This document shows, piece by piece, positions 11,407 to 35,533 of a DNA stretch of 64,000 nt (positions are counted from its first letter, which is position 1; the number at the start of each line of letters is the position of its first letter). The stretch comes from Sphaerochaeta pleomorpha str. Grapes (GTDB taxonomy: Bacteria; Spirochaetota; Spirochaetia; Sphaerochaetales; Sphaerochaetaceae). Under the pieces are notes generated by a model, which was given only the letters and a program-made list of their open reading frames with translations, searched no databases and was not told the origin of the DNA. The stretch lies in assembly GCF_000236685.1 (NCBI RefSeq), contig NC_016633.1, positions 2,666,001-2,730,000 on the forward strand, in the 5' to 3' direction. The position numbers and the translations under genes were made by a program.

Positions 11407-11409
11407 TAG

Positions 11410-11444: not shown

Positions 11445-11640
11445 CTTTTATGTGTAACTGAAATAGGGATTACCATGGCCATTTGGGAGATAGTACACAT
11501 TTCCTTATCTGATTTCATATCAGAGAAGATTTCTTTTAGATTCTTTCTTTCGCGATACCTTATTTATTTGCATTCGACCTGTTGGACTAGAATAGTCTGT
11601 GTTTTACAGCAAATGTCTGATATGATTTGTATTCAGGAAG

Positions 11641-11997: not shown

Positions 11998-12000
11998 CAG

Positions 12001-13151
12001 ATGGTTCATTATGAGAGTAACTATGCAATAACCCATGCCTTGGCCTATACGGATGAGGTCCTGCTACCTGATGTCACCATAGCGGTGGAGCAGGGGATCA
12101 TCACGTATGTTGGCAAGCATGATCAAAAGAGGGTGCAGCATCTCGATCAGTATGATGCCAAGGGCAACCTTGTGGGCCCTGGTCTGGTCGATATGCACAT
12201 CCATGGCTGTGGTGGCTTTGATTCAACCAGAGGCAATGTACAGGAAAACCTTGAAGGTATGGCCCTGTTTCTTGCAGGGAAGGGTATCACTAGTTTCCAA
12301 CTTGCAGTTGTCATGGATTTGGATCTCTTGGGTCAGATCAAAAAAGCAATGGATACGAGTGCTTTTCTCTCATCCTATCTGCTTGGGGTCTATGTGGAAG
12401 GCCCCTTTATCGCACCTGAAAAAAGGGTGGCATTCTATCTTCAGGTATTAGGGCCTTTGATAGGGGGTATCTGGAAAGCATTCTTTCTATCAAGTGTGGA
12501 AAGAAGCCACTTGTCACCTCTATGACCATAGCTCCTGAACTGCAAGGCAGTGAAGAGCTCTCGAGTGTCTTGGAACAGAACAACATTGTTGTGGCCTATG
12601 GCCATAGTGATTGTCCCTTGGAGGCATTGAAACCTAGGGATAAGAATCATCTTACCCATCTTTTCAATGCGATGAGCGGCATAGATCACAAACGCCCAGG
12701 CTTGGCAGCCATGCCATTTGTCCGTGACTACAGTCATGCAACGTATGAACTCATTTGTGATGGAGTGCATGTGCATCCGTCAGTGATAGACTTGACGATC
12801 AATTCACTTGGTACTGAAAGGCTTTGTCTGATTTCTGATGCTATGAGTTTGGCGGGCATGGGTACCGGTGAAGGCCTCTATTTGGGCAAGCAAATCTATT
12901 CGAATGGAAAGGCCTGCTATTACAGTGATAGTGACATACTGATAGGTTCTGCTATGCTGATCAGCGAATCAGCAAAGAACCTTGTTCACAAAAGCTTATT
13001 GGACAAGCGATCCTTCTTTCAGGTTGCGTGCGAGAACCCCTTACGGGTGCTTTCGCAAACAGATCGAGGCAGGATCAAACCCGGATACAAGGCTGACTTG
13101 GTGATGCTTTCCTCTGACACGGAAATCCAAGAGGTTTTCAAGGCAGAATAA
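12001..13151 (+). pseudogene. nagA: N-acetylglucosamine-6-phosphate deacetylase, frameshifted
   Basis: NagA removes acetate from GlcNAc-6-phosphate. The N-terminal half (12001 to about 12427) has the metal motif DMHIHGCGG (residues 64-72) and the EGPFIAPEKR segment near 131-140. The frame is then lost in the run of six A and three G at 12419-12427: one extra G would restore GGILSSGIRAFDRGYLESIL followed by the C-terminal half (from 12522), which has YGHSD, HLFNAMSG, ICDGVHVHP and the catalytic Asp in LISDAMSLAG. Apart from this one missing base the sequence is complete (about 383 residues), so this is either a recent mutation or an assembly error in a homopolymer. Confidence 0.85.
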
Positions 13152-13709: not shown

Positions 13710-14118
13710 CTATCTTGGTCGTTCTTTATCATTGAGATAGTGGTTGTAGATGGTGCCCTCAGTCTCATAGTCGTGTTCTGCATCCATTGTAAGATCTGAT
13801 TGAGTAGTACATCACTCTCCTTAAATGGGCCTTGGAAGAGAGCAGAGACTACTTTTTGAGTAGGTATCGAATGACAGGTTACCTGTGTATGCTCAAGCGA
13901 TATCTTCTTGGCAACTGGGAACCCCATCTCAACATCCCACTGCTCTATATCAGTATTGTAGTAACAGACAAAAGGATGAGAAGCGGGGGAGTACCTGCTT
14001 CTCTTTCATAACTCTCTTGAGTCATGGCGGGAAAATCCTCAAACCGTAACACCGTACGGATATTTGCCACCTGCTGTTCACGCACCTCATAAAACCCAAT
14101 CCCTGACACTACACTCAT
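13710..14118 (-). pseudogene. Decayed GyrI-like domain gene
   Basis: It starts with an ATG overlapping the stop of the AraC-type gene by four bases and SVVSGIGFYEVREQQVANIR, a GyrI-like first strand. A shift near 13975 moves to the frame with YYNTDIEQWDVEMGFPVAKK and IPTQKVVSALFQGPFKESD, the GyrI core. Another shift near 13785 is needed to reach the natural end, GTIYNHYLNDKERPR at 13710. With two breaks the protein is lost. It would have been a translationally coupled stand-alone sensor to the AraC-GyrI protein. Confidence 0.65.
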
Positions 14119-15404
14119 CGTACTCTTACCCGCTTGATCGGTCGTCTCAGGGCAACCAGCTGTTTCACATCCTCAAGCACCTCTGGGCTCCCAACTTCAA
14201 TCATCAACCACTTTTGCTGCAGCCCTGTCTTTGCATCGGCAAATACCTGCTGTACATACTCAGTAAGGAAAGATAGGAGTATCTCAGCCTCAGCCATCTC
14301 CCGATATCCAATGACAATAAGAGCGAGGAATGAACCCTCCTGAGGATAGAGCGTGCAGAGGCTTCTTCCCCCCTTCTTGTATTTTACATTCCAGCCATAC
14401 TGCATTGTGCATTTACTGAACTCAACCACCGGTTTAACCTGATAGGTCTCCTCCAGATAAGAGCACAAGCTGTCAAACAGCGGGTTCTGGACCTGCTTCG
14501 CAATAGCGTTGAAGGACATACCCACATCTTCTGTCCTGATCGGGAGCCAGAGTTCCATTGAGTTTGTGCTGTGGTACAACTCAGCTGAGAACGTCCCGCA
14601 TTTTACCTTATGCTGCTTCATCCATCTCCTCATGTAGGTCATTGCTTTGTGGATTGCGCTGCCGATAAGCAGGTCAAAACTCTCAGCTTCTATACTGCAT
14701 ACCGCATAGTCACCCTTGAGAAGGGTGAAGTGAGCAAGACCTTCTTGATCAACTCCCTCTGCTCCTACAAAGTAAGTGGCTAAAGCATCACCTTTCCGCT
14801 TTGTGTACAGTACCCCTATGCTTACAGTGTCTACTGGCTGTGTTTGATGAAACGTATCCCATAGGCTGGCTGCAGCAGACACTCCGGTTTCTCTCCCACC
14901 AGAGAGGTCAGTATCGGGGAGGAGCCTCTCAATACCTGAGAAGAAACGAGGGGCTTCCAGCTTCCTTCGGGTTACTTCAACTACCATATCATCGGTAATG
15001 AGTGGAACACCTTCTTCGATATCTGCATACAGAATGGAAACATCGGCTTTGAGACAATGGTTGAGATGCACAGGATGCTGGCGGTACTCATCCGGAGTGA
15101 GGCCGTAGGCATCACGGAAGGCCCGGGTGTAATTGGCATGGTCGGAGAAACCAAACTCCAAGGCAATATCAAGAATACGCTTCTGAGTATTGGTAAGTGC
15201 TTCACATGACCTTGCCAACCTTCTCAGTCTTACATACTCTCCCACAGGCATCCCTACCAAACGGTTAAAAAGCCGCTGAAAGTAGAACGGTGACAAGGAG
15301 GCTACTGTAGCCAGCTCTCCAATAGATAAATCTTTTGTCTCAATGACATCCACCACACGTTGGATCGATTCCCATGCTTGCATGTAAATACGATAGCACA
15401 ACAA
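14115..15404 (-). CDS. AraC-family regulator with GyrI-like and DUF3788 domains
   Basis: A 429-residue, three-part protein. Residues about 8-115 form two AraC helix-turn-helix motifs (LSIGELATVASLSPFYFQRL and ILDIALEFGFSDHANYTRAF), placed N-terminally as in the SoxS-Rob type. Residues about 125-285 are a GyrI-like effector domain. Residues about 300-429 match DUF3788 (WNVKYKKGGRSLCTLYPQEG then FLALIVIGYREMAEAE). DUF3788 is normally a stand-alone protein, so the triple fusion is unusual. AGGAG precedes the TTG codons at the start; an internal ATG at 15383 is the alternative. It probably senses a small molecule. Confidence 0.88.
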   Translation of the reverse strand: MLCYRIYMQAWESIQRVVDVIETKDLSIGELATVASLSPFYFQRLFNRLVGMPVGEYVRLRRLARSCEALTNTQKRILDIALEFGFSDHANYTRAFRDAYGLTPDEYRQHPVHLNHCLKADVSILYADIEEGVPLITDDMVVEVTRRKLEAPRFFSGIERLLPDTDLSGGRETGVSAAASLWDTFHQTQPVDTVSIGVLYTKRKGDALATYFVGAEGVDQEGLAHFTLLKGDYAVCSIEAESFDLLIGSAIHKAMTYMRRWMKQHKVKCGTFSAELYHSTNSMELWLPIRTEDVGMSFNAIAKQVQNPLFDSLCSYLEETYQVKPVVEFSKCTMQYGWNVKYKKGGRSLCTLYPQEGSFLALIVIGYREMAEAEILLSFLTEYVQQVFADAKTGLQQKWLMIEVGSPEVLEDVKQLVALRRPIKRVRVR

Positions 15405-22073: not shown

Positions 22074-22098
22074 TGCTTTTAATCAAGTAGAATTCCCC
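22074..22098 (+). repeat. IS21 left terminal inverted repeat (outer 25 bp)
   Basis: It matches the reverse complement of 27851-27875 at the tip (TGCTTTT) and in the TAGAA and TCCCC blocks, with a diverged centre. Both arms are exactly 25 bp long up to the target site of the IS3 copies. Confidence 0.8.
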
Positions 22099-22101
22099 AC
22101 T

Positions 22102-23727
22102 TGGAGGTGAAGACATTTTCTTGGACTCTTTAAGGAGAAGGGAATGTATTCATATGAAGAGAGGAAGAAAGCCGTTGAACTTTACATAAAGTTTGATAAG
22201 AGTGCTTGTGCCGTTGTAAGGGAGCTAGGGTATCCAGATACCAAGATGCTCAAGGCATGGCACCGGGAGTATCTTGAGAAAGGAGATCTGCACAAAAAGA
22301 ATCGATTGGGATATACATCGGAGCAAAGAGCTGCAGCCGTGCAATACTATCTGGAACATGGTAGAAGCCTTGCTCGTACGGTTAGGGCTCTTGGGTATCC
22401 TTGCCGCCCGCTTCTTGGGGAATGGGTCCATGAGGACCTTCCCTCTGACTGCCATCCTTTGAAAAGGGGTAAGTCTGTTGTAGAATACACGGACAAGCAA
22501 AAGATGGACGCTGTCGTATCCGTGGCATCAGGAGAAAAAACTGCAAAACAGCTCCAAGAAGAGATTGGGGTAACCCGTAGCGCGGTCTATCAGTGGAAAC
22601 GTCAATTGCTTGGGGAGGTAAGCAACCCCGAGATGAGAAAAAAATCCCAGAAAGAATCCGAGAAGGCTTCATCAGAACAGGAGATTCAGCTGAGGGCTGA
22701 ATGCGACGAGCTGAAAGATGAACGGGACAGACTGCAGGAACAGGTACAGAAGCTCCAGATGGAGAAGGAAATACTTGAGAAGGCGGCGGAAATACTAAAA
22801 AAAGATGAGGGCATCGGTATCGATACACTCTCCAACAGGGAGAAAGCCATGATTATCGATGCCCTTACAGGCAGGTACACCATAAGTCAGCTGCTGCCCT
22901 CCCTGCATATGGCGAAAAGCAGTTACTTCTACCAAATCCAAGCCATGAAGAAAGATAAGTATGAGCTTGTCAGGAAAGACCTGAGGAATGTGTTCTCTGA
23001 GAATCGGCAGTGTTACGGCTATCGCCGGCTGCATGCAGTCATGACATCCAATGGAAGCACCATTTCAGAGAAGGTGATTCTTCGTCTCATGCATGAGGAA
23101 AACCTTGTCGTTCCTTCCGTGAAGAGGAAGAGGTACAGCTCATACAAGGGTGAGCTCAGCCCTGAGGTCGAGAACATCATCAAGCGTGACTTCCATGCCG
23201 AGAACCCCAATGAGAAATGGCTGAGCGACATCACGGAATTCAGCATTCCCGCCGGCAAAGTATATCTTTCTCCAATGGTTGATTGTTTTGATGGCTACGT
23301 CACCTCCTGGACCCGTGGCACGAGCCCCAATGCTGAGATGGTGAACTCGATGCTGGATGAGGCTGTGGGCACACTGAAAGCTGGAGAGCACCCATTGGTC
23401 CATACCGATCGGGGGAGTCATTACCGTTGGCCCGGCTGGATTGAGAGAATGAATCGTGCCGGGTTGGTTCGGTCGATGTCGAAGAAAGGCTGCTCACCCG
23501 ACAATTCGGCATGCGAGGGCTTTTTCGGCCGATTGAAGAATGAGATGTTCCATTCCCGCTCATGGTTTGGGGAATCAATCGAAGAGTTTTGTGCACTGCT
23601 TGATGATTACATCTATTGGTACAACGAGAAACGAATCAAAATGTCTTTGGGAGCGAGGAGCCCCCTTGAGTATCGCAGGAGTCTTGGATTAGCATCATAG
23701 AAAAGTCCAACTTTTTGTCCGCACCCC
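22102..23727 (+). mobile_element. IS3-family element, copy 1
   Basis: 1626 bp with imperfect inverted ends (left GGTGAAGACA...TTGGACT, right the complement of GGTGCGGACA...TTGGACT). It appears identical to copy 2 at 26222-27847. The flanks are ACT (22099-22101) and CCT (23728-23730), a 3-bp duplication with one mismatch. It is inserted 25 bp plus the target triplet from the IS21 tip. Confidence 0.85.
22144..23700 (+). CDS. IS3-family transposase, single fused reading frame (copy 1)
   Basis: 518 residues joining the usual OrfA and OrfB. The N-terminus has repeated helix-turn-helix units (EERKKAVELYIKFDKSACAV and the later KMDAVVSVASGEKTAKQLQE), followed by a coiled coil with leucine repeats (about 175-220). 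The C-terminal rve integrase domain carries the DDE residues in WLSDITEF, VHTDRGSHY and SACEGFFGRLKNE. In most IS3 elements OrfAB needs a -1 frameshift; here it is encoded directly and an A7 run at 22797-22803 sits at the OrfA/OrfB junction. A ribosome site AAGGAGAAGG precedes the ATG. Complete and likely active. Confidence 0.93.
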   Translation: MYSYEERKKAVELYIKFDKSACAVVRELGYPDTKMLKAWHREYLEKGDLHKKNRLGYTSEQRAAAVQYYLEHGRSLARTVRALGYPCRPLLGEWVHEDLPSDCHPLKRGKSVVEYTDKQKMDAVVSVASGEKTAKQLQEEIGVTRSAVYQWKRQLLGEVSNPEMRKKSQKESEKASSEQEIQLRAECDELKDERDRLQEQVQKLQMEKEILEKAAEILKKDEGIGIDTLSNREKAMIIDALTGRYTISQLLPSLHMAKSSYFYQIQAMKKDKYELVRKDLRNVFSENRQCYGYRRLHAVMTSNGSTISEKVILRLMHEENLVVPSVKRKRYSSYKGELSPEVENIIKRDFHAENPNEKWLSDITEFSIPAGKVYLSPMVDCFDGYVTSWTRGTSPNAEMVNSMLDEAVGTLKAGEHPLVHTDRGSHYRWPGWIERMNRAGLVRSMSKKGCSPDNSACEGFFGRLKNEMFHSRSWFGESIEEFCALLDDYIYWYNEKRIKMSLGARSPLEYRRSLGLAS

Positions 23728-23790
23728 CCTTTACGCTGAGGAATTCCCCAGTTTGATCAAATTCCCCAGAATCCGTATCCAGGGTATTCT

Positions 23791-24597
23791 CTAATTTGTC
23801 CTTCTTACCTCCGTTACCTGATCTTTCATCAAGGAATGCTCCAACCTCCAATCCTTCGTCCCTGTATCTATCAAGTGGCCATAATGAACCACCCGGTCAA
23901 TGATTGCTGCTGCAAGCTGTTCATCAGTGACTACCTGCCCCCAATCCTTGAAAGGCAGGTTTGTTGTGATGATGAGGCTTTTATGCTCATAGGAATCGGC
24001 AATCACCTGAAACAGCATCCTGGAGCCTTCCAGGTCGATGGGAACATAGCCCCATTCATCCAGGATGAGGCAGTCCAGTTTCTTCAAATCGTTCAGGTAC
24101 CGTTCCAGCCGGTCCTCCTGCTTGGCTTCAACCAGCCTCAGCACCATTTGGGAAACTGTTGTAAACTTCACCTTATAGCCTTGCATGCATGCATCAATGC
24201 CCAGGCAGGTTGCAAGCATAGTTTTGCCGGTTCCGCAGGCACCAAAGAAAACCAAGGTCTTCTTTTCTGGTATGAACCTCAGGGAGAGCAAATCCTCCCT
24301 AGGTAGTAATTTGGGGAACCTTACATGGGTGAAATCATAGTCTCGGATGTCTTTGGGGATGGGGAAACCCGCCTGTTTCACCAGCCTTGCCTTGCTTACA
24401 TCCTGCCTATGGTAAAGCTCCTCGGATAACGTCTCCTCCAACCATTTCAACTGTCCTTTTGTCCCGGTATCCAGAATACGGTTAACCCCCTCTTTGGATA
24501 CATAAAACTTACGGAGGTGAGAGCTCAGCAACAATTCAATCTGTGCTTTCCACGCTGCCTGGGAGGGTTTGGAGCTGTCTTTTGGAGGTCTGCTCAT
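23791..24597 (-). CDS. istB: IS21 transposition helper ATPase IstB
   Basis: 268 residues, AAA+ ATPase of the DnaC/IstB type that assembles on target DNA and stimulates IstA. Walker A is GACGTGKTML near 109-118, Walker B LDCLILDEWGY near 168, and sensor I IITTNLPFKDW near 207. It overlaps the end of istA by four bases, giving the normal IS21 order istA-istB. Complete, so the parental element could still be mobile if the IS3 insertions have not destroyed its ends. Confidence 0.95.
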   Translation of the reverse strand: MSRPPKDSSKPSQAAWKAQIELLLSSHLRKFYVSKEGVNRILDTGTKGQLKWLEETLSEELYHRQDVSKARLVKQAGFPIPKDIRDYDFTHVRFPKLLPREDLLSLRFIPEKKTLVFFGACGTGKTMLATCLGIDACMQGYKVKFTTVSQMVLRLVEAKQEDRLERYLNDLKKLDCLILDEWGYVPIDLEGSRMLFQVIADSYEHKSLIITTNLPFKDWGQVVTDEQLAAAIIDRVVHYGHLIDTGTKDWRLEHSLMKDQVTEVRRTN

Positions 24598-26099
24598 CTG
24601 TTGCCTCCTTGGGCCATCAATGCATTGAAGGGCTCAAGGCTTACACCGGTAGTATTGGAGGACATACCGATCGGGAACGAGACAAGCCTCCTTGCATAGG
24701 TTTTTACATCAGCCGCTGAGTTTTCCCTTTCACCATGCCAGGTGTTGTCCATTGCAAGGGCGGCGACATTGAAACCGAATTCCTGTGCCGTCTCGTTCAA
24801 AAGGTACAACCCGCGTTTCCTTGCATTTGCATCTGCATGGTCCATATAGTTCCTGAAGGCCCCAGGTTCCATTGCTTCCCGGACTTGACTGTTCATCCAG
24901 GCATTGGGCTTGTATTTCAATGCGTCAAGACTGATGAGCATGTCAACGCTTTCTGTGGTGGAACCGCCGAACTGCCTTGGGTATTCATGGATGAATCCAC
25001 CCTCGGGAGTGTAGAACTTGATGTCCCAGGCCCCAAAGCCACAAAGTATCGTGCGGTTTGCATATCTGGGTCCCAAGAGATAGCTGTGTGTCGCCGAATT
25101 GGTTTTCACCATTCCGTAGCTGTCGGTGGTAAAGGTGTCATACCTGACCACCACGAAGGGGGTGTGGGGCAATGGCAGCAAGGCCTTCCTGTCCGTCTCG
25201 AAAAGATTCTTGACCAGTTCCCCCTTCTGGTAGTGTTCCACCTCCATCCTCAGGTTTCCGCTCTTTTCCATCAATGGGTAGGCATTGAAACGGACAATTC
25301 CGCCAGCCGGGATGCATACAGTAGGGACGAACAGGTGGGAACGAACGTATTTCACGGCGGCTTCCACGTTTCCCTTCTCATTTCCGCTCTGTGGATTGCA
25401 AAACCTGACCTGGAAGCGATGATGGAGCTGGAACCTGGCAAACATTTGGCATTGCCGTACCTTATCCCCGATCCTCCGGCCTACGCCGGTGGCGTTATCG
25501 AAGATAATGAGAACAGGGATTCCCCCTATGTAATTGAAGATTGCCAGCAGACCCTCGCAGACACATTCTGCAGTTTCCCCTTTGAAAAGCTGGCAGAAGA
25601 CCCTGTTGCTGAAGGGGAAGGAGAGCACCAGGAAGTAGAGTTTTTCCAGCTTTCCCTCGATTAAGAAATGGGCTTCCCCGAAGTCACACTGGGCCTCCCC
25701 AGGATGCCAGACAAGCTTGAGCGCGCCTTTCTCATGGTTGCTTCGCAACTCTTGCTGGTGCTTGGCTTTCATGTATCTTCTGATGGTATGGTAGGCATGC
25801 TCCAATTCCACATGGCAGCAGTCCACGAAAAGGAATTCCCACATGCGCGTAGCCGTGAAACGCTGCTTGCGGTTGAGTTTCTTTTGTTCGTCAATCAACT
25901 CGTCAATCTGTTGGATGTAAGGCTCCAGCAAACCTCCAGGACATCCCTTCTTTGTTGGCATTTCCTGATTGAAATCCGTTTTGTCCAGGATTTTCCTGAC
26001 CGTCTTCCGATCGTGTCCTGTAGCTTCCGCTATGGCACTGATGGTATTCCCCTGACGGTCCATGTCCTGTATCATCTGTATCTGGGACATTTTTAACAT
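24594..26099 (-). CDS. istA: IS21 transposase IstA
   Basis: 501 residues. An N-terminal helix-turn-helix (NTISAIAEATGHDRKTVRKI near 17-36) is followed by the rve catalytic domain with Asp in AQCDFGEAHF, Asp in LIIFDNATGV and Glu in GNEKGNVEAAV, the full DDE triad. The C-terminal Mu-type beta barrel region completes the family pattern. It catalyses cutting and joining of IS21 ends together with IstB. GGAGTT lies directly before the ATG. Confidence 0.95.
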   Translation of the reverse strand: MLKMSQIQMIQDMDRQGNTISAIAEATGHDRKTVRKILDKTDFNQEMPTKKGCPGGLLEPYIQQIDELIDEQKKLNRKQRFTATRMWEFLFVDCCHVELEHAYHTIRRYMKAKHQQELRSNHEKGALKLVWHPGEAQCDFGEAHFLIEGKLEKLYFLVLSFPFSNRVFCQLFKGETAECVCEGLLAIFNYIGGIPVLIIFDNATGVGRRIGDKVRQCQMFARFQLHHRFQVRFCNPQSGNEKGNVEAAVKYVRSHLFVPTVCIPAGGIVRFNAYPLMEKSGNLRMEVEHYQKGELVKNLFETDRKALLPLPHTPFVVVRYDTFTTDSYGMVKTNSATHSYLLGPRYANRTILCGFGAWDIKFYTPEGGFIHEYPRQFGGSTTESVDMLISLDALKYKPNAWMNSQVREAMEPGAFRNYMDHADANARKRGLYLLNETAQEFGFNVAALAMDNTWHGERENSAADVKTYARRLVSFPIGMSSNTTGVSLEPFNALMAQGGNR

Positions 26100-26221
26100 A
26101 ACTCCTATGAATCCTCCCTAAGCCTTTTGGTCGAGACTTGGGAAGATTAGATTCTGGGACTTCTTGTTGCAAGTGTCCCTTTTTCCGTTTGATCAAACTG
26201 GGGAATTCCTATGATCAAACG

Positions 26222-27847
26222 GGGGTGCGGACAAAAAGTTGGACTTTTCTATGATGCTAATCCAAGACTCCTGCGATACTCAAGGGGGCTCCTCGCTCCC
26301 AAAGACATTTTGATTCGTTTCTCGTTGTACCAATAGATGTAATCATCAAGCAGTGCACAAAACTCTTCGATTGATTCCCCAAACCATGAGCGGGAATGGA
26401 ACATCTCATTCTTCAATCGGCCGAAAAAGCCCTCGCATGCCGAATTGTCGGGTGAGCAGCCTTTCTTCGACATCGACCGAACCAACCCGGCACGATTCAT
26501 TCTCTCAATCCAGCCGGGCCAACGGTAATGACTCCCCCGATCGGTATGGACCAATGGGTGCTCTCCAGCTTTCAGTGTGCCCACAGCCTCATCCAGCATC
26601 GAGTTCACCATCTCAGCATTGGGGCTCGTGCCACGGGTCCAGGAGGTGACGTAGCCATCAAAACAATCAACCATTGGAGAAAGATATACTTTGCCGGCGG
26701 GAATGCTGAATTCCGTGATGTCGCTCAGCCATTTCTCATTGGGGTTCTCGGCATGGAAGTCACGCTTGATGATGTTCTCGACCTCAGGGCTGAGCTCACC
26801 CTTGTATGAGCTGTACCTCTTCCTCTTCACGGAAGGAACGACAAGGTTTTCCTCATGCATGAGACGAAGAATCACCTTCTCTGAAATGGTGCTTCCATTG
26901 GATGTCATGACTGCATGCAGCCGGCGATAGCCGTAACACTGCCGATTCTCAGAGAACACATTCCTCAGGTCTTTCCTGACAAGCTCATACTTATCTTTCT
27001 TCATGGCTTGGATTTGGTAGAAGTAACTGCTTTTCGCCATATGCAGGGAGGGCAGCAGCTGACTTATGGTGTACCTGCCTGTAAGGGCATCGATAATCAT
27101 GGCTTTCTCCCTGTTGGAGAGTGTATCGATACCGATGCCCTCATCTTTTTTTAGTATTTCCGCCGCCTTCTCAAGTATTTCCTTCTCCATCTGGAGCTTC
27201 TGTACCTGTTCCTGCAGTCTGTCCCGTTCATCTTTCAGCTCGTCGCATTCAGCCCTCAGCTGAATCTCCTGTTCTGATGAAGCCTTCTCGGATTCTTTCT
27301 GGGATTTTTTTCTCATCTCGGGGTTGCTTACCTCCCCAAGCAATTGACGTTTCCACTGATAGACCGCGCTACGGGTTACCCCAATCTCTTCTTGGAGCTG
27401 TTTTGCAGTTTTTTCTCCTGATGCCACGGATACGACAGCGTCCATCTTTTGCTTGTCCGTGTATTCTACAACAGACTTACCCCTTTTCAAAGGATGGCAG
27501 TCAGAGGGAAGGTCCTCATGGACCCATTCCCCAAGAAGCGGGCGGCAAGGATACCCAAGAGCCCTAACCGTACGAGCAAGGCTTCTACCATGTTCCAGAT
27601 AGTATTGCACGGCTGCAGCTCTTTGCTCCGATGTATATCCCAATCGATTCTTTTTGTGCAGATCTCCTTTCTCAAGATACTCCCGGTGCCATGCCTTGAG
27701 CATCTTGGTATCTGGATACCCTAGCTCCCTTACAACGGCACAAGCACTCTTATCAAACTTTATGTAAAGTTCAACGGCTTTCTTCCTCTCTTCATATGAA
27801 TACATTCCCTTCTCCTTAAAGAGTCCAAGAAAATGTCTTCACCTCCA
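26222..27847 (-). mobile_element. IS3-family element, copy 2 (inverted)
   Basis: 1626 bp, same sequence as copy 1 in the opposite direction, flanked by a perfect 3-bp target duplication ACG (26219-26221 and 27848-27850). It sits in the right IS21 end at exactly the position that copy 1 occupies in the left end. Confidence 0.88.
26249..27805 (-). CDS. IS3-family transposase, single fused reading frame (copy 2)
   Basis: The encoded 518-residue protein is the same, residue for residue, as that at 22144-23700; the antisense frames also agree, so the DNA is identical or nearly so. DDE residues, coiled coil and the A7 run at the OrfA/OrfB junction are all present. The identity shows that one copy derives from the other very recently or that the two are kept alike by gene conversion. 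Confidence 0.93.
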   Translation of the reverse strand: MYSYEERKKAVELYIKFDKSACAVVRELGYPDTKMLKAWHREYLEKGDLHKKNRLGYTSEQRAAAVQYYLEHGRSLARTVRALGYPCRPLLGEWVHEDLPSDCHPLKRGKSVVEYTDKQKMDAVVSVASGEKTAKQLQEEIGVTRSAVYQWKRQLLGEVSNPEMRKKSQKESEKASSEQEIQLRAECDELKDERDRLQEQVQKLQMEKEILEKAAEILKKDEGIGIDTLSNREKAMIIDALTGRYTISQLLPSLHMAKSSYFYQIQAMKKDKYELVRKDLRNVFSENRQCYGYRRLHAVMTSNGSTISEKVILRLMHEENLVVPSVKRKRYSSYKGELSPEVENIIKRDFHAENPNEKWLSDITEFSIPAGKVYLSPMVDCFDGYVTSWTRGTSPNAEMVNSMLDEAVGTLKAGEHPLVHTDRGSHYRWPGWIERMNRAGLVRSMSKKGCSPDNSACEGFFGRLKNEMFHSRSWFGESIEEFCALLDDYIYWYNEKRIKMSLGARSPLEYRRSLGLAS

Positions 27848-27850
27848 ACG

Positions 27851-27875
27851 GGGGAGTTCTAGAATATCAAAAGCA
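27851..27875 (-). repeat. IS21 right terminal inverted repeat (outer 25 bp)
   Basis: Counterpart of 22074-22098. It ends with AAAAGCA, followed by the target duplicate ACCCTGG at 27876-27882. Confidence 0.8.
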
Positions 27876-28241: not shown

Positions 28242-28766
28242 TTATCTCAAAGATAATGACCGGTTTAGTTTAAGAGTACGACACATGGAATTAAAATGTA
28301 ATATTTGATGATTTATATTAGTTGCGGTATTAATAAACTCTCCAATACTAATATTATAAGCTTTGCAGTAGTTTTCAAGCGTTGAAAGAGTAGGAAGATT
28401 ACAATAACGATTGCTTTCTCGAAAACTTATTGAGCTAATTTGAAAACCAGTAATTTGTGCTAATTGATTCTCTGATAATTCTTTTTTAAATCTATAATAC
28501 CTTAGCGTATCAGAAATATCTTCAGGATAAATTGTATGATTTCCAATTGCCCCTTGAAAAGTGTCTCCAGCATATCTAAGGAATATTGCGGTATCGGTTG
28601 CTGTTAAATCTGAAATTTTGAGGATTGTTTTCAAACAAGGATTCCATTCGTCATTTTTTAGGATTATTTCTATCCACCTTTTGTTTACTTCAAGTTGTTT
28701 TGCAAGAACAGAAATAGAAATTTGCTTTTCATTGATAATAAAATCAAGTGCTTTTCGATAGTTCAT
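28242..28766 (-). CDS. XRE-like regulator with two helix-turn-helix domains
   Basis: 174 residues. A first HTH spans about 6-55 (ISISVLAKQLEVNKRWIEII) and a second, clearer Cro/CI-type HTH about 85-145 (ELSENQLAQITGFQISSISF then PTLSTLENYCKAYNISIGEF). The ATG at 28766 is chosen for the GGAG six bases upstream. It points away from the six-gene operon across a 576-bp AT-rich gap and is the natural candidate for its regulator. Composition is as AT-rich as the operon. Confidence 0.78.
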   Translation of the reverse strand: MNYRKALDFIINEKQISISVLAKQLEVNKRWIEIILKNDEWNPCLKTILKISDLTATDTAIFLRYAGDTFQGAIGNHTIYPEDISDTLRYYRFKKELSENQLAQITGFQISSISFRESNRYCNLPTLSTLENYCKAYNISIGEFINTATNINHQILHFNSMCRTLKLNRSLSLR

Positions 28767-29342
28767 AGACATCTCCAAAATTGTTTATTTTAAGAGATGC
28801 AAAAGTCATCAAGTTGCTTCAATTCTAAGATTTTGCAATTTATACGCGGAGTCGCGATACTATACAGAACTGATGCTTAATTGGAAGCCTTGCTTTTCTA
28901 CAAAAGCAACCTCAAAACTAAAAATAATCTGCAGTAGGCTTTTTTTATCAAGCCCGACAGGAGAAGATAACCCACCGATTTCATCGGTTCCACTGGACTG
29001 AGCCATCGGTCAATATTCCCTTGAGAGAAGTCCAAAGGGTCGGGTTTTAAACTCATTTCGACTCTTGGTCCAAAAGTAACGATAATCTTATTAATAATAT
29101 ATTATTCTTGAAAAACTGTATAATTAATAGCGTAAAAGCTTGTGGGAATATGATTTCATAGAGATAGGTAATAGCAAAATTTCACTTTTTCCAGAGATGA
29201 ATTTTAGAAGTTAGGTTTTGTTTATGATTTTATTTATCAATATTTTTATAGTTTGCTGCAATAATTCGCTAATGCAAATAAAATCCTAGCCATTGGTGAT
29301 AAAATTGTGATATATTACTTAAATAAGGGAATATATTGATTT
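28767..29342. promoter_or_regulatory. AT-rich divergent intergenic region of the island
   Basis: 576 bp between the XRE gene and the radical SAM gene. It contains a perfect 6-bp stem ACCGAT/ATCGGT (28975-28989, loop TTC), a further CATCGGT at 29005-29011 and many AT tracts. These could be operators for the XRE protein, but no promoter could be assigned with confidence and a small RNA is not excluded. No protein-coding frame is visible. Confidence 0.4.
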
Positions 29343-30494
29343 ATGCGAATTGGAATTGTTGACGCAGACCTTGTTGGAAGGAAAAAACACAGGTTTCCAA
29401 ACCTTGCCTGCGAGAAGATATCAGCTTATTGGAAAGAAAAGGGCGCTGAGGTTTCCTTATTATTGAACTATAACGATGTGAATGAATTTGAAGAAGTGTT
29501 TATATCAAAGGTTTTCACTGATACAATTGTTCCTGATAGTATATGTGATTCTCAGGTAGTGCATATTGGGGGGACAGGATTCTATTTTGATAGAGCACCG
29601 AACCTTCCTGAGGAGATTGAGCATCATATGCCTGATTATCATTTATATGATGATTGGATTAACAATGAAATTAACAATGTAAAGTTGGAATATGAGCAAC
29701 TTGGTAAAAGTCTAAGCATGTCATCGTACATGCAACAGTTTAAAGAATATCAAGGTTATGCAATAGGGTTTCTTACCAGAGGATGTTTTAGAAAATGCAA
29801 GTTTTGTGTTAATCAGAAGTATGACCATGTATTTGCTCATAGCCCTTTGTCTGAATTTTATTCAGGAGAGGAAAAGAAAATCTGTCTTCTTGACGACAAT
29901 TTTTTAGGATGTCCTAGTTGGCGGCCAATGCTTGAAGAACTAACGGACACTGGAAAACCTTTTAAGTTTAAGCAGGGTCTTGATGAAAGACTACTTACCG
30001 AAGAAAAATGTAAATTACTCTTTTCTGCAAACTACGACGGTGACTATACATTTGCTTTTGATAACATTGCAGACTATGAATTAATCCATTCAAAGTTACA
30101 ACTAATCAGAAAATACGCCAGAGAGAAAGAAAGTATAAAATTTTATGTTCTAGTTGGTTTTGAGAGTACCGATGGTCAAGATATAGAAAATGCGTTCAAA
30201 CGCATTTCTTTGTTAATGAAGTATAAATGTTTGCCTTACATAATGCGCTACCAAGATAAAAATTATTCTCCTTGGAAACAATCAAGGTTTAGAGGAATGT
30301 ATATTGCTATTGCTAGATGGGCAAACCAGCCAAGTATTATAAAAAAAATGAGTTTCCGGCAGTTTTGTGACGCAAATCAAGCTTTGTGTAAAACACCTGG
30401 AAAAGTTTGCGCTACCATGATGTCAATGATTGAGTTTGAGAAGGAATATCCAGCAATAGCAAAACAGTATTTCAATCAACGTTTTGAAGACTAG
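29343..30494 (+). CDS. Radical SAM protein, first gene of the six-gene island operon
   Basis: 383 residues. An N-terminal Rossmann-like domain (MRIGIVDADL, then VFISKVFT and HIGGTGFYFD) resembles the start of B12-binding radical SAM proteins, but no B12 histidine motif is seen. The radical SAM core has the cluster cysteines C148, C152 and C155 in TRGCFRKCKFCVNQ, followed by LLDDNFLG near 182, a common strand motif of this superfamily. It would bind [4Fe-4S] and S-adenosylmethionine. It is unlike viperin, QueE or methylthiotransferases in its cysteine context. Eleven bases separate it from the first ParB-like gene. Substrate unknown; nucleic acid is plausible from the neighbours. Confidence 0.82.
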   Translation: MRIGIVDADLVGRKKHRFPNLACEKISAYWKEKGAEVSLLLNYNDVNEFEEVFISKVFTDTIVPDSICDSQVVHIGGTGFYFDRAPNLPEEIEHHMPDYHLYDDWINNEINNVKLEYEQLGKSLSMSSYMQQFKEYQGYAIGFLTRGCFRKCKFCVNQKYDHVFAHSPLSEFYSGEEKKICLLDDNFLGCPSWRPMLEELTDTGKPFKFKQGLDERLLTEEKCKLLFSANYDGDYTFAFDNIADYELIHSKLQLIRKYAREKESIKFYVLVGFESTDGQDIENAFKRISLLMKYKCLPYIMRYQDKNYSPWKQSRFRGMYIAIARWANQPSIIKKMSFRQFCDANQALCKTPGKVCATMMSMIEFEKEYPAIAKQYFNQRFED

Positions 30495-30505
30495 AGGAAT
30501 AGAAA

Positions 30506-31501
30506 ATGGCTAAATCAAATTACATGGAACTTAGTATCAATGAAGTAGAGTTGGATATTACAAACCCACGTATCAAGATGTATTTGGAAAACTATTCTGA
30601 GATTACTTCAGAAGGGATTGCACTAGCTTTAAATGGTGCTGCGAGTGATGGGGCTTTTCTGGCTCTTCGCGAGTCAATTAGAGCAAACGGAGGAGTCATC
30701 AATCCCATCCTTGTGAATCATAACGAAGATGATAAATATATTGTTATAGAAGGAAACACAAGGCTTCAGATTTATAAGGATTTTCTTGTCACTAACCCAA
30801 GTGGGCCATGGAGAACTATTCGCGCTATTGTTTATGAAAACATGACCGAGGAAGAAATACACTCAATCCGATTACAAACTCATCTAGTGGGGCCGAGAGA
30901 TTGGGATCCATATTCAAAAGCTAAGTATTTGGATTATCTTATGAATGATAAGCGTTTGCCTCTCAATGCAATAATTTCCTATTGTGGGGGGAAAAAGACA
31001 GAAATTCTCAAGTTGGTTGCTGCATATCAAGATATGCAACGATATTATGTAACAAAAACAAAGGAGCTGGAATTTGACCTTGATTACAAAGACTTTTCAA
31101 AATTTTCTGAACTTCAAAACAAAGGAATAATAGATGCTTTAAGGCTAAATAACTTTACAAAGATAGATTTTTCAACCTGGGTCTTAAATAGAAATATTGA
31201 TACTGCTCAAAATGTAAGACTGCTCCCAACTATCCTTAAGGATAAAGATGCTAAAGCTGAGTTTTTACGAACAAATATCTCTGAGGCGTATAAAAGAGTA
31301 AATCTTCCGATTACAGCGATTGACCTTTCAAGTATTGATTATTTTAGTCTCTGTCAAGCTTTGACTGCAAAATTGGATAAGATTTGTTACAAGGAAGCAA
31401 AATATCTTCAATCAGATAAAGGAGAAGAAAAACGTGCTGCACTTTTGCTATTGAGTCAAAGTATTGAATTTATCCTTGATGAGGGATCAGAGGAAGAATA
31501 A
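30506..31501 (+). CDS. ParB/sulfiredoxin-fold protein A of the island operon
   Basis: 331 residues. The ParB N-terminal fold is shown by NPR (20-22), NGGVINPILV (61-70) and EGNTRL (82-87), which correspond to ParB boxes I and II. HLVGPRDWDPY follows at 126-136 and then a helical region. This is not a chromosome-partition ParB; it lacks the C-terminal dimer domain order and is longer in the middle. ParB-like folds can bind CTP/ATP or cut DNA, and related folds appear in defence systems that sense modified DNA. It is a clear paralogue of the protein at 33390-34397. Its stop overlaps the start of the nuclease gene by one base. Confidence 0.8.
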   Translation: MAKSNYMELSINEVELDITNPRIKMYLENYSEITSEGIALALNGAASDGAFLALRESIRANGGVINPILVNHNEDDKYIVIEGNTRLQIYKDFLVTNPSGPWRTIRAIVYENMTEEEIHSIRLQTHLVGPRDWDPYSKAKYLDYLMNDKRLPLNAIISYCGGKKTEILKLVAAYQDMQRYYVTKTKELEFDLDYKDFSKFSELQNKGIIDALRLNNFTKIDFSTWVLNRNIDTAQNVRLLPTILKDKDAKAEFLRTNISEAYKRVNLPITAIDLSSIDYFSLCQALTAKLDKICYKEAKYLQSDKGEEKRAALLLLSQSIEFILDEGSEEE

Positions 31502-31914
31502 TGGCTGAATCTTCAGAACATATGAAGTATGTTGATATATTATTTTCCTTTGTGGAAACCCTGATTCCAAAAGAAATGGGTTCGTTAATATTAGTGGATA
31601 AACCAAGTTGCAGAGAAAAGCCACCACGTACATCCGGAAATTTTACTCCAGACATAATCTATAAGAATCAAGAAGTACTGATTATTGGCGAAGCAAAAAC
31701 AGAAGATGATGTAGAGAGGCGACACAGTCTATCCCAATACGAGAATTACTATTTAGATGCCATAAATTTTGAAGGGAAATCGATTGTTATTCTTTCAGTT
31801 CCATGGTTTATGAAGAATACTATTAAAAATGTTATGCGTCGAATTAAGCAAAGGTATATAAGAAAAATTCCTGTTTTTGTTATTACCGAGCTTGGTGGAG
31901 CGGAAGAAATATGA
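31501..31914 (+). CDS. Small PD-(D/E)XK nuclease-like protein
   Basis: 137 residues. The active-site pattern of PD-(D/E)XK nucleases is visible: Pro-Asp at 50-51 (NFTPDIIY), then VLIIGEAKT with Glu64 and Lys66, followed by a helix with a Gln-Tyr pair at 79-80. The size fits the minimal catalytic core. It overlaps the SNF2 gene by four bases (ATGA), so the two are translationally coupled and probably work as a nuclease-translocase pair. The target cannot be told. Confidence 0.72.
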   Translation: MAESSEHMKYVDILFSFVETLIPKEMGSLILVDKPSCREKPPRTSGNFTPDIIYKNQEVLIIGEAKTEDDVERRHSLSQYENYYLDAINFEGKSIVILSVPWFMKNTIKNVMRRIKQRYIRKIPVFVITELGGAEEI

Positions 31915-33389
31915 GTAATATTAATTTTTCCCATTCGATCAACTTTGAAACCAAAAGAAAGGCTTTTCCTTACCAAAAAGAAGCATTTGATGCAATAAAA
32001 GACTTAGATTATTCTGCAATATTTCACGAGCAGGGACTAGGGAAAACCAAGATAGCAATTGATTTGATACTGTATTGGCTAGAAAAGCGTTCAATCGATA
32101 CAGTTCTTATTGTAACAAAAAAACAACTTGTGTCTAATTGGCAAAAAGAATTCCATAGTCATACTTTTATTTCTGCAAAAGTCTTGGATTCTGATAAAAG
32201 AAATAATTATTTTATTTTGAATAGTACTGCAAGGGTAGTTTTGACAAACTTCGAGACTATTTCTTCTGAAAAGGAACGGCTTCGTCTTTATCTAAAAACA
32301 AGGAGTGTCGCTTTGGTTATTGATGAATCTACAAAAATTAAGAATCCAGATTCAAAGCTAACTAAAGATTTTTTTGCGTTATCAAATCTTTTCACGATCA
32401 GAACTATTATGACAGGAACCCCTGTCGCAAATAGACCATACGATATATGGTCTCAGATTTTCTTTCTGGATTCAGGAAAAAGCTTAGGTAACAATTTTCC
32501 AGAATTTAAACAACATACTAATCTAAGAAACGATTTCATTGAGAATATTGAGAAACGAGAAGAATTTGAACAGTGTGTTTCTGAAATCTATTCGAAAATC
32601 TCATCGTTTACTGTTCGTGAAACAAAGAGTAGTGGAATAATTCAATTACCTAAAAAGATATATCATGATATCTACTGCAATTTTGAACCTACTCAATTGC
32701 ATATGTATAAGGAAATTCAGAATGAACTTTCTATTCTGGTTCAAAAAGAAAACGAGACGTTGCTAGATGACAATGAAGCGTCTCTTAAAAGACTAATACG
32801 ACTTCTTCAAGTATCATCAAATCCTAGGTTGATAGATGATTATTATGGTTATGATTCTGCTAAAGAAGTTGAACTTAAAAAGATTCTTGGAGAAATATTA
32901 AATCGGTCAGAAAAAGCAATAGTGTGGAGTTGTTATATAGAGAATATAAATTACTTTTGGCAATTTTTTAATGAATATCAACCTGCCAGGATTCATGGAA
33001 AATTGTCTATCGAAGACAGAAACAAGTCTGTAGAAAGATTTTTAGAAGACCCAAAATGTAAGATTTTATTTGCTACGCCACAATCAGCGAAAGAAGGACT
33101 AACATTAACTGTAGCTAACAATGTAATATTTTATGATCGAGGGTTTAATTTGGATGATTATCTTCAAGCTCAAGACCGTATTCATCGCATTTCACAAGTT
33201 AAAGACTGCAACATTTACAATCTAATGGTAAGAAACAGTATTGATGAATGGGTTTCTGTTTTATTACAGGCCAAACAGAATGCGGCGTTTTTGGCTCAAG
33301 GTGATTATCAATTAGTAAAATATTGTGAGGCTATGGATTATTCTTATGGGGATTTAATCAAAGAAATATTAAGCCAGGAGGTGGAGTAA
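31911..33389 (+). CDS. SNF2-family DNA translocase/helicase of the island operon
   Basis: 492 residues, the compact SNF2 form found in phages and defence loci. Motif I is EQGLGKTKIA (40-49), motif II VIDESTKIKN (136-145, DEST in place of DEAH), motif III TGTPVANRP (168-176) and motif VI QAQDRIHRISQ (about 418-428). It should move along double-stranded DNA using ATP. There is no fused nuclease or methyltransferase; the nuclease is the separate upstream protein. The next gene starts immediately after its stop with no gap. Confidence 0.92.
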   Translation: MSNINFSHSINFETKRKAFPYQKEAFDAIKDLDYSAIFHEQGLGKTKIAIDLILYWLEKRSIDTVLIVTKKQLVSNWQKEFHSHTFISAKVLDSDKRNNYFILNSTARVVLTNFETISSEKERLRLYLKTRSVALVIDESTKIKNPDSKLTKDFFALSNLFTIRTIMTGTPVANRPYDIWSQIFFLDSGKSLGNNFPEFKQHTNLRNDFIENIEKREEFEQCVSEIYSKISSFTVRETKSSGIIQLPKKIYHDIYCNFEPTQLHMYKEIQNELSILVQKENETLLDDNEASLKRLIRLLQVSSNPRLIDDYYGYDSAKEVELKKILGEILNRSEKAIVWSCYIENINYFWQFFNEYQPARIHGKLSIEDRNKSVERFLEDPKCKILFATPQSAKEGLTLTVANNVIFYDRGFNLDDYLQAQDRIHRISQVKDCNIYNLMVRNSIDEWVSVLLQAKQNAAFLAQGDYQLVKYCEAMDYSYGDLIKEILSQEVE

Positions 33390-34397
33390 ATGGATATTGA
33401 TGATTTTTTATTGGGGAAAATGATGATTGGGAAAAGAGAATATGAAGTAAAAAACTGTGACCTTAGGCAATCTGACCTAGCTTTCTATGTTGATAACCCA
33501 AGAGTATATAGTTCTCTCCGAAATATTGATGATTCTGTGCCTACTCAAGAAGAAATAGAAAAACATATGTGTGATATGGAGAGTGTGAAACAATTGCGTT
33601 TGTCGATTAAAGAAAACGGAGGACTAATTGACCCACTTATAGTACGGGAGAGAGACTTTGTCGTATTGGAAGGAAATAGTCGTCTAGCTGCTTATCGCCT
33701 TCTATGCAAGACAGACCCAGTGAAGTGGGGAAAAGTAAAATGTACAGTTCTTCCCGCTGATATTGATGAAGCTGCAATCTTTACTTTGCTTGGACAATAC
33801 CACATTGTTGGTAGAAAAGATTGGAGTCCCTATGAACAAGCAGGATATTTATATAGGAGAAAAAAAAATACAAAGATTCCTATCTCAGATATTGCGAGAG
33901 AATTGGGTATTGCAGAATCACAAGCAAAGAACTATATTCGAGTTTTTGAATATATGATTACTATAGATGACCTTGTGCAATCAAGATGGAGCTATTACGA
34001 AGAACTTTTAAAGAACAAAAGTATTCAAAAAGCAATAGATATTAATCCAACTTATGAAAAAGTTATTGTGGCTCAGATTAAGACTGGGCAAATTGAAGCT
34101 GCTGCTGATATAAGAAAAATAGGAAAGATAGCGTCATTAAAGACTAAAAAAGGAAAAAAAATTTTTCAGGAGGTAGCTAATGGTGATAAAGATGTATATT
34201 TAGCTTACTCTGAACTACAAAACGCTGGAAGTTTCGATAAAGTATTTGAAAAGGTCACATCTTTTAGGAATTATATCATTGAACCGTCGTTGAAGCAGAG
34301 TATTGTTTCTAGTGCAAAGAAGGATGACATTGTGTTTTGCATCAAAAAAATTATTAGTCGACTTAAAGATGTACAGAAAGAGATAGAAAATGAGTAA
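33390..34397 (+). CDS. ParB/sulfiredoxin-fold protein B of the island operon
   Basis: 335 residues. NPR (36-38), ENGGLIDPLIV (75-85), EGNSRL (94-99) and HIVGRKDWSPY (138-148) match the order and spacing in the protein at 30506-31501, so the two are paralogues kept in one operon. Here a helix-turn-helix follows (IPISDIARELGIAESQAKNY, about 164-183), as in true ParB, which suggests specific DNA binding. The start is flush with the SNF2 stop. The end overlaps the last gene by eight bases. Confidence 0.8.
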   Translation: MDIDDFLLGKMMIGKREYEVKNCDLRQSDLAFYVDNPRVYSSLRNIDDSVPTQEEIEKHMCDMESVKQLRLSIKENGGLIDPLIVRERDFVVLEGNSRLAAYRLLCKTDPVKWGKVKCTVLPADIDEAAIFTLLGQYHIVGRKDWSPYEQAGYLYRRKKNTKIPISDIARELGIAESQAKNYIRVFEYMITIDDLVQSRWSYYEELLKNKSIQKAIDINPTYEKVIVAQIKTGQIEAAADIRKIGKIASLKTKKGKKIFQEVANGDKDVYLAYSELQNAGSFDKVFEKVTSFRNYIIEPSLKQSIVSSAKKDDIVFCIKKIISRLKDVQKEIENE

Positions 34398-35070
34398 TTC
34401 TGAACTATTGCTTTTTTTTAGTGGTACATACGAGAAAAGTTTAAATGGTAAAATGTTATATAGAAACTACAAGTTACCAGAAGATGAAGTGATCTCTTAC
34501 ATAGACAGAATCTCGAATTATCCATTCTTAGACTTTCTTGATATCATTAATGGCTATAATGATGTTTCATATTTGACTTATGATGATGTTTTTCAGTTTA
34601 GTAGTTTTGAAGATGCTACTTGTAATATCTGTAAAGTAATTAAAAACGCTGGAGATGAAGGATATTCATGTATTGAGATCGGGAAGATGCTTGAAAATGA
34701 TGGCAAACAAAGAAAGGATGGTGCCTACACAAAATACGGTGAAAATCATGCAAAAACAGCATGTCAGTTAGGGCTTCTTCATTCTATGAGCAATGTATAT
34801 TTTTTGACTTGTATTGGTGCTTGTGTCAATGATTTACCCATAGATATAAGTGAAAAGTTCATCTCTAGAATTTGCCTTAGAAACAACCTAATAAAAAAAA
34901 TTATTCGAAGGATTCATACTGCCGGACAAGCAAGCTATTTTTCAGAAGTGGATTTTCTTTGTCAGTCGACGGCTGAAAGGAGATCTAGTAATGTAAAAAC
35001 TGTAATTAGATATATTGCAACTCATGCTGATACTGAAGGATTCTTTGAAGCATTATCATTCCAAAAATGA
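34390..35070 (+). CDS. Unknown protein, last gene of the island operon
   Basis: 226 residues with no recognised family. A segment from about 72 to 150 (EDATCNICKVIKNAGDEGYS then IEIGKMLENDG) has the look of a winged helix, with helices followed by an AKTACQLGLLHSMSNVYFLT strand-turn-strand. The C-terminus is helical and basic. The eight-base overlap with the preceding gene and the shared AT-rich composition make it part of the same unit. DNA recognition or a scaffold role is only a guess. Confidence 0.6.
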   Translation: MSNSELLLFFSGTYEKSLNGKMLYRNYKLPEDEVISYIDRISNYPFLDFLDIINGYNDVSYLTYDDVFQFSSFEDATCNICKVIKNAGDEGYSCIEIGKMLENDGKQRKDGAYTKYGENHAKTACQLGLLHSMSNVYFLTCIGACVNDLPIDISEKFISRICLRNNLIKKIIRRIHTAGQASYFSEVDFLCQSTAERRSSNVKTVIRYIATHADTEGFFEALSFQK

Positions 35071-35329
35071 TGATTTAAAAACTAACAGATTAGAAAACAA
35101 TCATTTGATGTGATGACGTTTTTGCTTAGGCTATTTAAAGAACAGGTAGTCATTTGGGGAATTTTTTAAAAATCATCCACATAGGATTGTTGGCAGAATT
35201 CACACTAAGACTTCACTTGGTTGAACAAGAGATTTGTTTACTAACCCGATTTGGCATACATTGACCAAAAGAACTTCCTATGTTCCATCTCGTGCCACAC
35301 TGAGAAAGAGGTGAGTCTATAAAACAAGA
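35071..35329. other. Island right border, no gene seen
   Basis: 259 bp between the last island gene and the tRNA terminator. AT-rich, no family in any frame, and no copy of the tRNA 3' end that would mark an attachment site. Confidence 0.4.
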
Positions 35330-35358
35330 AGAACTCCCCGCATCTAGCAAGGAGTTCT
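35330..35358 (-). terminator. Terminator after the tRNA gene
   Basis: AGAACTCC (35330-35337) pairs with GGAGTTCT (35351-35358). On the minus strand it is followed by CTTGTTTTAT, a moderate T tract. It lies seven bases beyond the tRNA 3' end. Confidence 0.6.
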
Positions 35359-35362
35359 GATT

Positions 35363-35438
<76 letters not shown>

Positions 35439-35533
35439 GAGAAAACCGTACTTAATCTAAAAGATTTTGCCAAGAATGTAAAGCGGATAGGGCCCTGTTG
35501 ATGAAAAAACCTCTTAGGTGTTTTCTGATTGCA

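Follow-up and report, generated by a model that had tools for sequence, protein, structure and literature searches.

The window analyzed here is a stretch of 64,000 nucleotides from Sphaerochaeta pleomorpha str. Grapes (contig NC_016633.1, positions 2,666,001 to 2,730,000 of the forward strand). Our subject is an operon at positions 29343-35070 of this window, where six intact open reading frames (ORFs), all on the plus strand and none with an internal stop, are separated by intergenic gaps of 11, -1, -4, 0 and -8 bases. The GC content of the operon is ~33%, against 45-50% to its right. A first-pass annotation, made by a model that saw only the letters and their reading frames, had described six AT-rich genes packed in just this way, and its coordinates and gaps were reproduced. 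The genes, with product lengths in amino acids (aa), are these:

29343..30494, plus strand: rSAM, a radical-SAM (S-adenosylmethionine) enzyme, 383 aa, with an N-terminal Rossmann domain and a TIM barrel; phrog_9298, 3.6e-53
30506..31501, plus strand: ParB1, a ParB/Srx-fold protein, 331 aa; ParB_N, 5e-4 (below cut-off); EGNTR box
31501..31914, plus strand: a small PD-(D/E)XK-type nuclease, 137 aa; PD...GEAK pattern and a weak Hjc profile match
31911..33389, plus strand: SNF2, an SNF2-family DNA translocase, 492 aa; PF00176, 3.1e-31, and Helicase_C, 5.7e-17
33390..34397, plus strand: ParB2, a ParB/Srx-fold protein with a helix-turn-helix (HTH), 335 aa; phrog_3694, 8e-17; EGNSR box
34390..35070, plus strand: ORF6, a winged-helix-containing protein, 226 aa; an accessory gene of the window's clade only

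The catalytic motifs of these proteins are intact, and coincide with alignment columns that are conserved family-wide. Hidden Markov model (HMM) libraries, including PADLOC, NCBIfam, and collections of phage families, name parts of the operon only, and never the whole set; for the nuclease and ORF6 they offer nothing convincing. Scans for promoters and terminators found the region no richer in such signals than shuffled sequences, the terminator of the nearby tRNA excepted.

The core genes and their candidate modifiers

Searches that used ParB2 collected 74 loci (L numbers below) from more than a dozen phyla, from plasmids, and from a few viral contigs. The presence of ParB2 in all of these is, of course, by construction, since the loci were picked by it; the other genes are independent of that choice. 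The ParB2 alignment, run against 84,980 species genomes, delivered 65 loci, which lie in Bacteroidota, Bacillota, Elusimicrobiota, Saccharimonadota, Pseudomonadota, Chloroflexota, Planctomycetota, Acidobacteriota, Thermotogota, Verrucomicrobiota, Nitrospirota, and others. Many loci come from metagenome bins, so that some taxon labels may be wrong; near-identical copies (L027/L029 and L039/L040, for example) are found in bins of different phyla.

Across these loci, ParB1, the nuclease, SNF2, and ParB2 have a constant order and strand in complete contigs, with three exceptions. Two loci (L047, L083) have one broken core gene each, and the third, an odd locus from Bradyrhizobium (L024), has a nuclease that the first search missed yet that is present. 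ParB1 was found in every locus whose left side is complete. The four genes form a conserved, collinear core, and the recurrence of their order in unrelated phyla is far above chance. The first-pass annotation had proposed such recurrence as the check on its six-gene set; the four core genes of that set passed it, while ORF6 proved confined to the window's clade, with homologues in 5 other loci.

The system is patchy and rare. It is carried by 2 of 296 genomes on the spirochaete side (the window's phylum), by 2 of 288 in the order of L031, and by 1 of 287 in the phylum of L037, where each sample counts its own centre genome. On plasmids, a tblastn search with ParB2 found rhizobial and Roseomonas records with the order ParB1-nuclease-SNF2-ParB2, where genes for DGQHR, radical-SAM, and ATP-binding proteins adjoin the core. 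Several loci on plasmids, together with the ParB fold, might recommend the view that ParB clamps serve here in the maintenance or partition of plasmids and islands. We think this very unlikely: the conserved set has no ParA, its nuclease and translocase are invariant, and many loci lie on long chromosomal contigs.

Beside the core there is, in 65 of the 74 loci, a gene of the rSAM family, upstream or downstream, on the same strand or the opposite one. A GHKL ATPase is found in 44 loci and a DGQHR/DndB-family protein in 28, neither of them without rSAM. This DGQHR partner exceeds the cut-off of the NCBIfam model TIGR03187, and resembles DpdB. All core-linked rSAMs, those of the window and the rhizobia included, fall in one cluster; direct comparison finds the rhizobial enzyme (543 aa) and that of the window (383 aa) to be homologous, at E 6e-8.

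Nine of the 74 loci have no rSAM. Four of these (L027, L066, L080, L084) are cut by contig ends. In each of the five that remain, from Bacilli (L031, L032, L034) and Saccharibacteria (L037, L038), a D12-class DNA adenine methylase adjoins the core, and in three of the five a type II restriction enzyme is present as well. L031 contains the DpnII system (methyltransferase 6e-63, second methyltransferase 3e-66, DpnII 2e-109), as does L032, by clustering, and L034 has a D12 methylase with a protein that matches a type II restriction endonuclease model at 2e-82. A profile search of the five whole genomes found no member of the rSAM family; these genomes are metagenome bins, where a missing contig is possible. 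This absence implies that rSAM has been replaced in them, not relocated. A Fisher test of the exchange, on loci flanked by 3.5 kb or more on each side, gives p = 1.3e-5, uncorrected for kinship. The methylase loci of Bacilli are arranged unlike those of Saccharibacteria. One rSAM locus, L033, has a D12 methylase too, downstream past two other genes.

In L031, the DpnM-like and DpnA-like methylases lie on one side of the core and the DpnII endonuclease on the other. In both L031 and L032, the four-gene core is inserted between the gene for the DpnA-like second methylase and that for the endonuclease. Given this placement, the core would seem to work beside a classical self-marking system. Conversely, one might suppose that the core attacks in the manner of type IV enzymes, cutting DNA that bears a foreign mark, while rSAM or the methylase removes, masks, or competes with that mark. 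Type IV enzymes do include ParB-fold proteins with nucleases, GmrSD among them (PMC12839542), and phages carry relatives of rSAM. The constant pairing of the core with a modifier, including DpnM and DpnA in a classical restriction-modification (R-M) system, fits self-marking better, and makes an attack on foreign marks improbable.

The distances between homologs bear on how these parts are joined. Their pairwise correlations are 0.87-0.88 among the core genes and 0.88 between rSAM and GHKL, whereas those between core and rSAM are 0.55-0.59; all lie above 999 permutations. This tight covariation within the core and between rSAM and GHKL, looser between core and rSAM, implies a constant core with an exchangeable module. 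Further, the rSAM of the window is nearest to those of L029 and L043 (67-68%), and its SNF2 to those of L041, L035, and L030 (64-65%). Thus, core and modifier each evolve as units that are occasionally re-paired.

Two further observations concern the neighbours of these modules. A PIN_8-domain protein and another GHKL ATPase form a second pair, unnamed in PADLOC, that often stands beside the rSAM-GHKL genes (L019, L020, L021, L057, L061, L072, L073, L075, L086). In L025, the gene directly 3' of ParB2 (10993-12360) matches the defence family PD-T7-3 at 5e-104.

The radical-SAM enzyme and the core proteins

The CxxxCxxC motif by which the first-pass annotation had recognized a radical-SAM enzyme (nt 29784-29807; C148, C152, and C155) is invariant in 32 of 32 family members. 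The AlphaFold model of rSAM is confident (pLDDT 93.1), and consists of a Rossmann domain followed by a radical-SAM barrel. Nearly its full length aligns with MgmA (Z 18.4), AprD4 (17.8), and MiaB (16.6); RimO (15.9), CysS (14.8), TsrM (13.7), and OxsB are further full-length matches of the fold. A Rossmann cobalamin-binding domain joined to a radical-SAM barrel is the architecture of class B radical-SAM methyltransferases. The DxHxxG motif is absent from all 32 aligned sequences; it is not obligatory in all B12-dependent radical-SAM methyltransferases. Because the fold is that of methylating or methylthiolating enzymes, methyl transfer is a reasonable guess for the activity of rSAM, a candidate DNA-modifying enzyme.

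MiaB and RimO themselves have an N-terminal domain whose three cysteines hold a second Fe-S cluster. The rSAM family alignment has no conserved N-domain cysteine; its sole invariant cysteines are C148, C152, and C155. Identity with these methylthiotransferases was rejected for want of such cysteines, alike as the folds are (Z about 16). No PADLOC model matched rSAM, and the NCBIfam scan returned no match such as QueE.

The superfamily and the TIM barrel are, of course, common to viperin (Z 9) and MiaB (Z 16.6), and unrelated effectors can share operons. The enzyme might then be a separate effector that acts on nucleotides, RNA, or protein, in the manner of viperin or of tRNA-modifying enzymes, next to a core that is an independent nuclease system. 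A prokaryotic viperin (pVip) is a radical-SAM enzyme that turns a nucleoside triphosphate (NTP) into ddh-NTP. However, viperin structures align with the barrel of rSAM alone (Z about 9), and rSAM has an N-terminal Rossmann domain in addition. With PADLOC silent, the MiaB/RimO-type cysteines missing, DNA methylases standing in for rSAM, and a DGQHR/DpdB-like protein linked to it, we give the idea of a separate effector little credence.

Phages carry relatives of this enzyme. The window's rSAM is 51% identical to that of the Oscillospiraceae phage NatCom_21982 (phrog_9298), whose gene overlaps a DNA methyltransferase gene. Relatives also lie beside or near DNA methylases in LoVEphage, PV4-TP1, Dulem virus 39, and BKO1-TP3; no methylase is annotated near those of vir215 and Marinitoga virus 1. 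Among the gut phages with the family near DNA methyltransferases (L007, L010, L093, L094, and L095), several also have PAPS-reductase-like genes, and this is possibly a phage DNA modification set.

Could the operon then be prophage debris, a replication or recombination module derived from a phage, in which SNF2, the small nuclease, and the ParB-like proteins handle the DNA of the element and rSAM shields phage DNA from host restriction? SNF2 matches phrog_62 at 6e-92 and rSAM matches phrog_9298 at 4e-53. Phage vir335 has a phrog_62 helicase, rSAM, and a ParB-like gene adjacent to one another, and in BKO1-TP3 the genes for a helicase, rSAM, VRR-NUC, and a methyltransferase are near each other. 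A standard prophage replication module was also an alternative that the first-pass annotation had named. But the alignment scan found 3 loci in 2.9 million viral contigs, where single-protein scans with rSAM, ParB2, and SNF2 had zero matches, against 65 in the species-genome set. The genes that flank the core loci are mixed (recombinases, R-M genes, defence candidates, housekeeping genes), and the window's island has no phage structural genes, and none recognized as phage. The exchange of methylases and restriction endonucleases would not be expected of such a module, and we regard a phage-derived one as unlikely. The ParB-nuclease-SNF2-ParB set is absent from the phage rSAM loci examined, and phage records hold no match for the nuclease or ORF6.

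ParB1 and ParB2 are true paralogues, at 26% identity. In the alignments, an EGNxR box takes the place of the GERR of ParB: EGNTR in ParB1 (nt 30749-30763, E82-G-N-T-R86) and EGNSR in ParB2 (nt 33669-33683, E94-G-N-S-R98). The profile of ParB1 is nearest to Noc; ParB2 is 38-41% identical to its rhizobial and Roseomonas orthologues. The assignment of the nuclease follows from its PD...GEAK pattern (PD at nt 31648-31653, P50-D51; GEAK at nt 31687-31698, G63-E64-A65-K66), kept across 72 homologues, and from a weak profile match to the Holliday-junction resolvase Hjc that spans the motif. SNF2 has a Walker A motif (GLGKT, nt 32034-32048), a DE box (nt 32322-32327), and a motif VI (QAQDRIHR, nt 33165-33197), and matches the ZorD model at 6e-54, in the helicase part only. 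The two paralogous ParB boxes, the GEAK site, and the SNF2 motifs that the first-pass annotation had pointed out are all conserved in the family alignments. In the window, the nuclease and SNF2 genes share 4 bases, and they are neighbours throughout the loci, which suggests that the two proteins act in one complex.

In the model of ORF6 (pLDDT 88.7), residues 72-150 form a winged helix like that of MarR/MntR (Z about 9); Foldseek found no significant match for the protein. Comparison by hhalign did not support ORF6 as a split-off C-terminal domain of longer rSAMs, nor as the DUF7226-type domain of a type II restriction endonuclease. A weak likeness to FokI (Z 6.4 over 153 residues) is no stronger than chance would allow, and we gave it no weight.

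The tRNA-Met hotspot

Two landmarks frame the operon:

28242..28778, minus strand: XRE regulator, 178 aa, with two HTHs; HTH_26, 6e-8; probably outside the system
35365..35438, minus strand: tRNA-Met, whose 3' side is an integration hotspot

The tRNA is that which the first-pass annotation had placed nearby. Genomes of the same genus align with the window from ~35324 rightwards, through tRNA-Met and on; to the left, they diverge. There, L127 carries type I specificity and restriction subunits, and L128 a DndH-like protein; in L130 a type II R-M set and a DpdB-like protein accompany a tyrosine integrase, and in L131 the integrase is joined by phage-like genes. The 3' side of tRNA-Met (window 35324-35483 and leftwards) is a variable hotspot for defence and integration in the genus. 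Proximity to defence genes, which the first-pass annotation had advised checking, is borne out by the type I R-M, DndH-like, and type II R-M genes of these relatives. A search for attachment-site repeats on the flanks of the operon found none.

Homologues of the XRE regulator (32-34% identity) lie directly beside the tRNA in L127 and L130, which have no operon. The XRE gene is thus probably a resident of the hotspot, and the operon sits between two features that are neighbours elsewhere. The first-pass annotation had described this gene as a divergent regulator upstream of the operon; it is not conserved with the system, and a role as a dedicated regulator of the operon was set aside.

The island lies between a nagA-like gene and tRNA-Met. 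What had been called "IS debris" on its left is better described as two near-identical insertion sequence (IS) copies (22074-23761 and 26188-27875), a 1688-nt inverted repeat at 99%, each encoding an rve transposase of 518 aa. These bracket an intact IS21-type istA/istB pair at 23791-26099, and the whole resembles a composite or nested IS island. The nagA-like gene appears as two overlapping ORFs (12001-12525 and 12522-13151). Since the relative L129 has one undivided ORF of 383 aa (13762-14913), a frameshifted copy is suggested.

A restriction-modification-like interpretation

An R-M system pairs a DNA-modifying enzyme with a nuclease that spares modified DNA. Judged from the genes, the pairing of modifier with core and the exchange of rSAM for methylases support R-M as the kind of system found here. 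We consider it probable that the operon is a horizontally moved, R-M-like defence of two modules, with rSAM as the putative DNA modifier. A guess of defence or DNA modification, with rSAM making or sensing a modification and the nuclease-SNF2 pair acting on DNA, had already been made in the first pass; the conserved order, the methylase in place of rSAM, and the site in a defence hotspot agree with it, and it is from these that we infer function.

By analogy with R-M, rSAM would mark host DNA and the core would destroy DNA without the mark. The first module, the modifier, would be rSAM, joined in many relatives by the GHKL ATPase and the DGQHR/DndB-family protein, and would attach a methyl or some other small group to host DNA, which the mark would protect. 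The second, the core, would comprise ParB1, the nuclease, SNF2, and ParB2. Here, the ParB-fold pair may load on or scan DNA in a nucleotide-dependent way, sensing whether the mark is present. The SNF2 motor would translocate along DNA, and the small PD-(D/E)XK nuclease would cut incoming unmarked DNA, so that phages or plasmids might be stopped. In the window's clade, the winged helix of ORF6 probably adds a contact to DNA. A nucleotide-gated ParB clamp is plausible, as proteins of this fold bind CTP, ATP, or GTP (PMC12704722); radical-SAM goes unmentioned in the main text of that paper, a recent survey of the ParB-CTPase fold.

Several points weigh against this R-M-like reading. In the tree, the five methylase loci fall together as a single clade with rSAM clades around it, so that swap events were few, perhaps one to three. 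In the DpnII-type loci, R-M could act alone, and the core could serve some other purpose. The closest family to SNF2 is the phage helicase family phrog_62. Last, the fold of rSAM is common to enzymes that act on proteins, tRNA, and small molecules, and by structure alone DNA is therefore no more than a candidate substrate.

The HMM libraries and open papers searched (subscription literature and preprints were outside this scope) describe no system with this gene set, as the first-pass annotation had supposed. The nearest comparisons each share some parts with it. Unlike the DpnII loci, the window operon encodes neither a DNA methylase nor a type II restriction endonuclease; its modifier candidate is rSAM, and its nuclease is accompanied by SNF2 and two ParB-fold proteins. 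With Dpd it has in common the logic of modification plus restriction. The helicase part of its SNF2 resembles DpdE, and the DGQHR partner of its relatives resembles DpdB, but PADLOC and NCBIfam found no DpdA (TGT family), DpdC, or other Dpd protein in the operon. The N-terminal ~90-110 residues of ParB1 resemble part A of PD-Lambda-5 in PADLOC (2.6e-7). The part A models are, however, mostly of 430-500 aa, against 331 for ParB1; part B is similar to D12 methylases, of which the window operon has none, and the nuclease-SNF2 core is not listed as a component.

MORC and paraMORC operons combine a GHKL ATPase, an SNF2-type helicase, a nuclease, and a DNA methylase (Iyer, Abhiman and Aravind 2008, PMC2292703). 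Many relatives here match this theme, whereas the window has no GHKL gene, and that paper mentions neither ParB nor radical SAM. Zorya and DISARM share an SNF2 translocase core, but ZorD and DrmD are much larger. The six proteins gave no ZorA or ZorB match, with ZorD matched in the helicase region only, and a PADLOC scan of them gave, for DISARM, a DrmD-like helicase similarity only. Nor did they match the Dnd/Ssp phosphorothioation proteins (PP-loop DndC/SspD, DndD/DndE, SspB/C); the DGQHR/DndB family occurs in relatives only, not in the window. Dnd and Dpd systems with DndB-like proteins have been described (PMC10853773, PMC12839542).

A more specific version of the R-M-like reading is plausible, if somewhat less likely than not. 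Here, rSAM would write a novel DNA mark, perhaps by methylating a carbon beyond the reach of ordinary SAM methylases; the four-protein core, with two ParB-fold and possibly CTP-switching clamps, would tell self from foreign by that mark; and the writer would be interchangeable with Dam-type methylases. The idea is directly testable, because the swap of rSAM for Dam-type methylases provides one core with two modifiers. It predicts that a host losing either modifier becomes vulnerable to its own core.

If this is true, a defence family that the annotation libraries searched do not name is present in more than a dozen phyla. It would be, to our knowledge, the first restriction-like system with a self-mark written by a radical-SAM enzyme, and a new setting for ParB-fold nucleotide switches. 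As a kind, of course, the system is R-M-like; the radical-SAM self-mark, if confirmed, would be the new chemical step. Since relatives of rSAM lie next to DNA methylases in phages, phages may use the same chemistry to hide.

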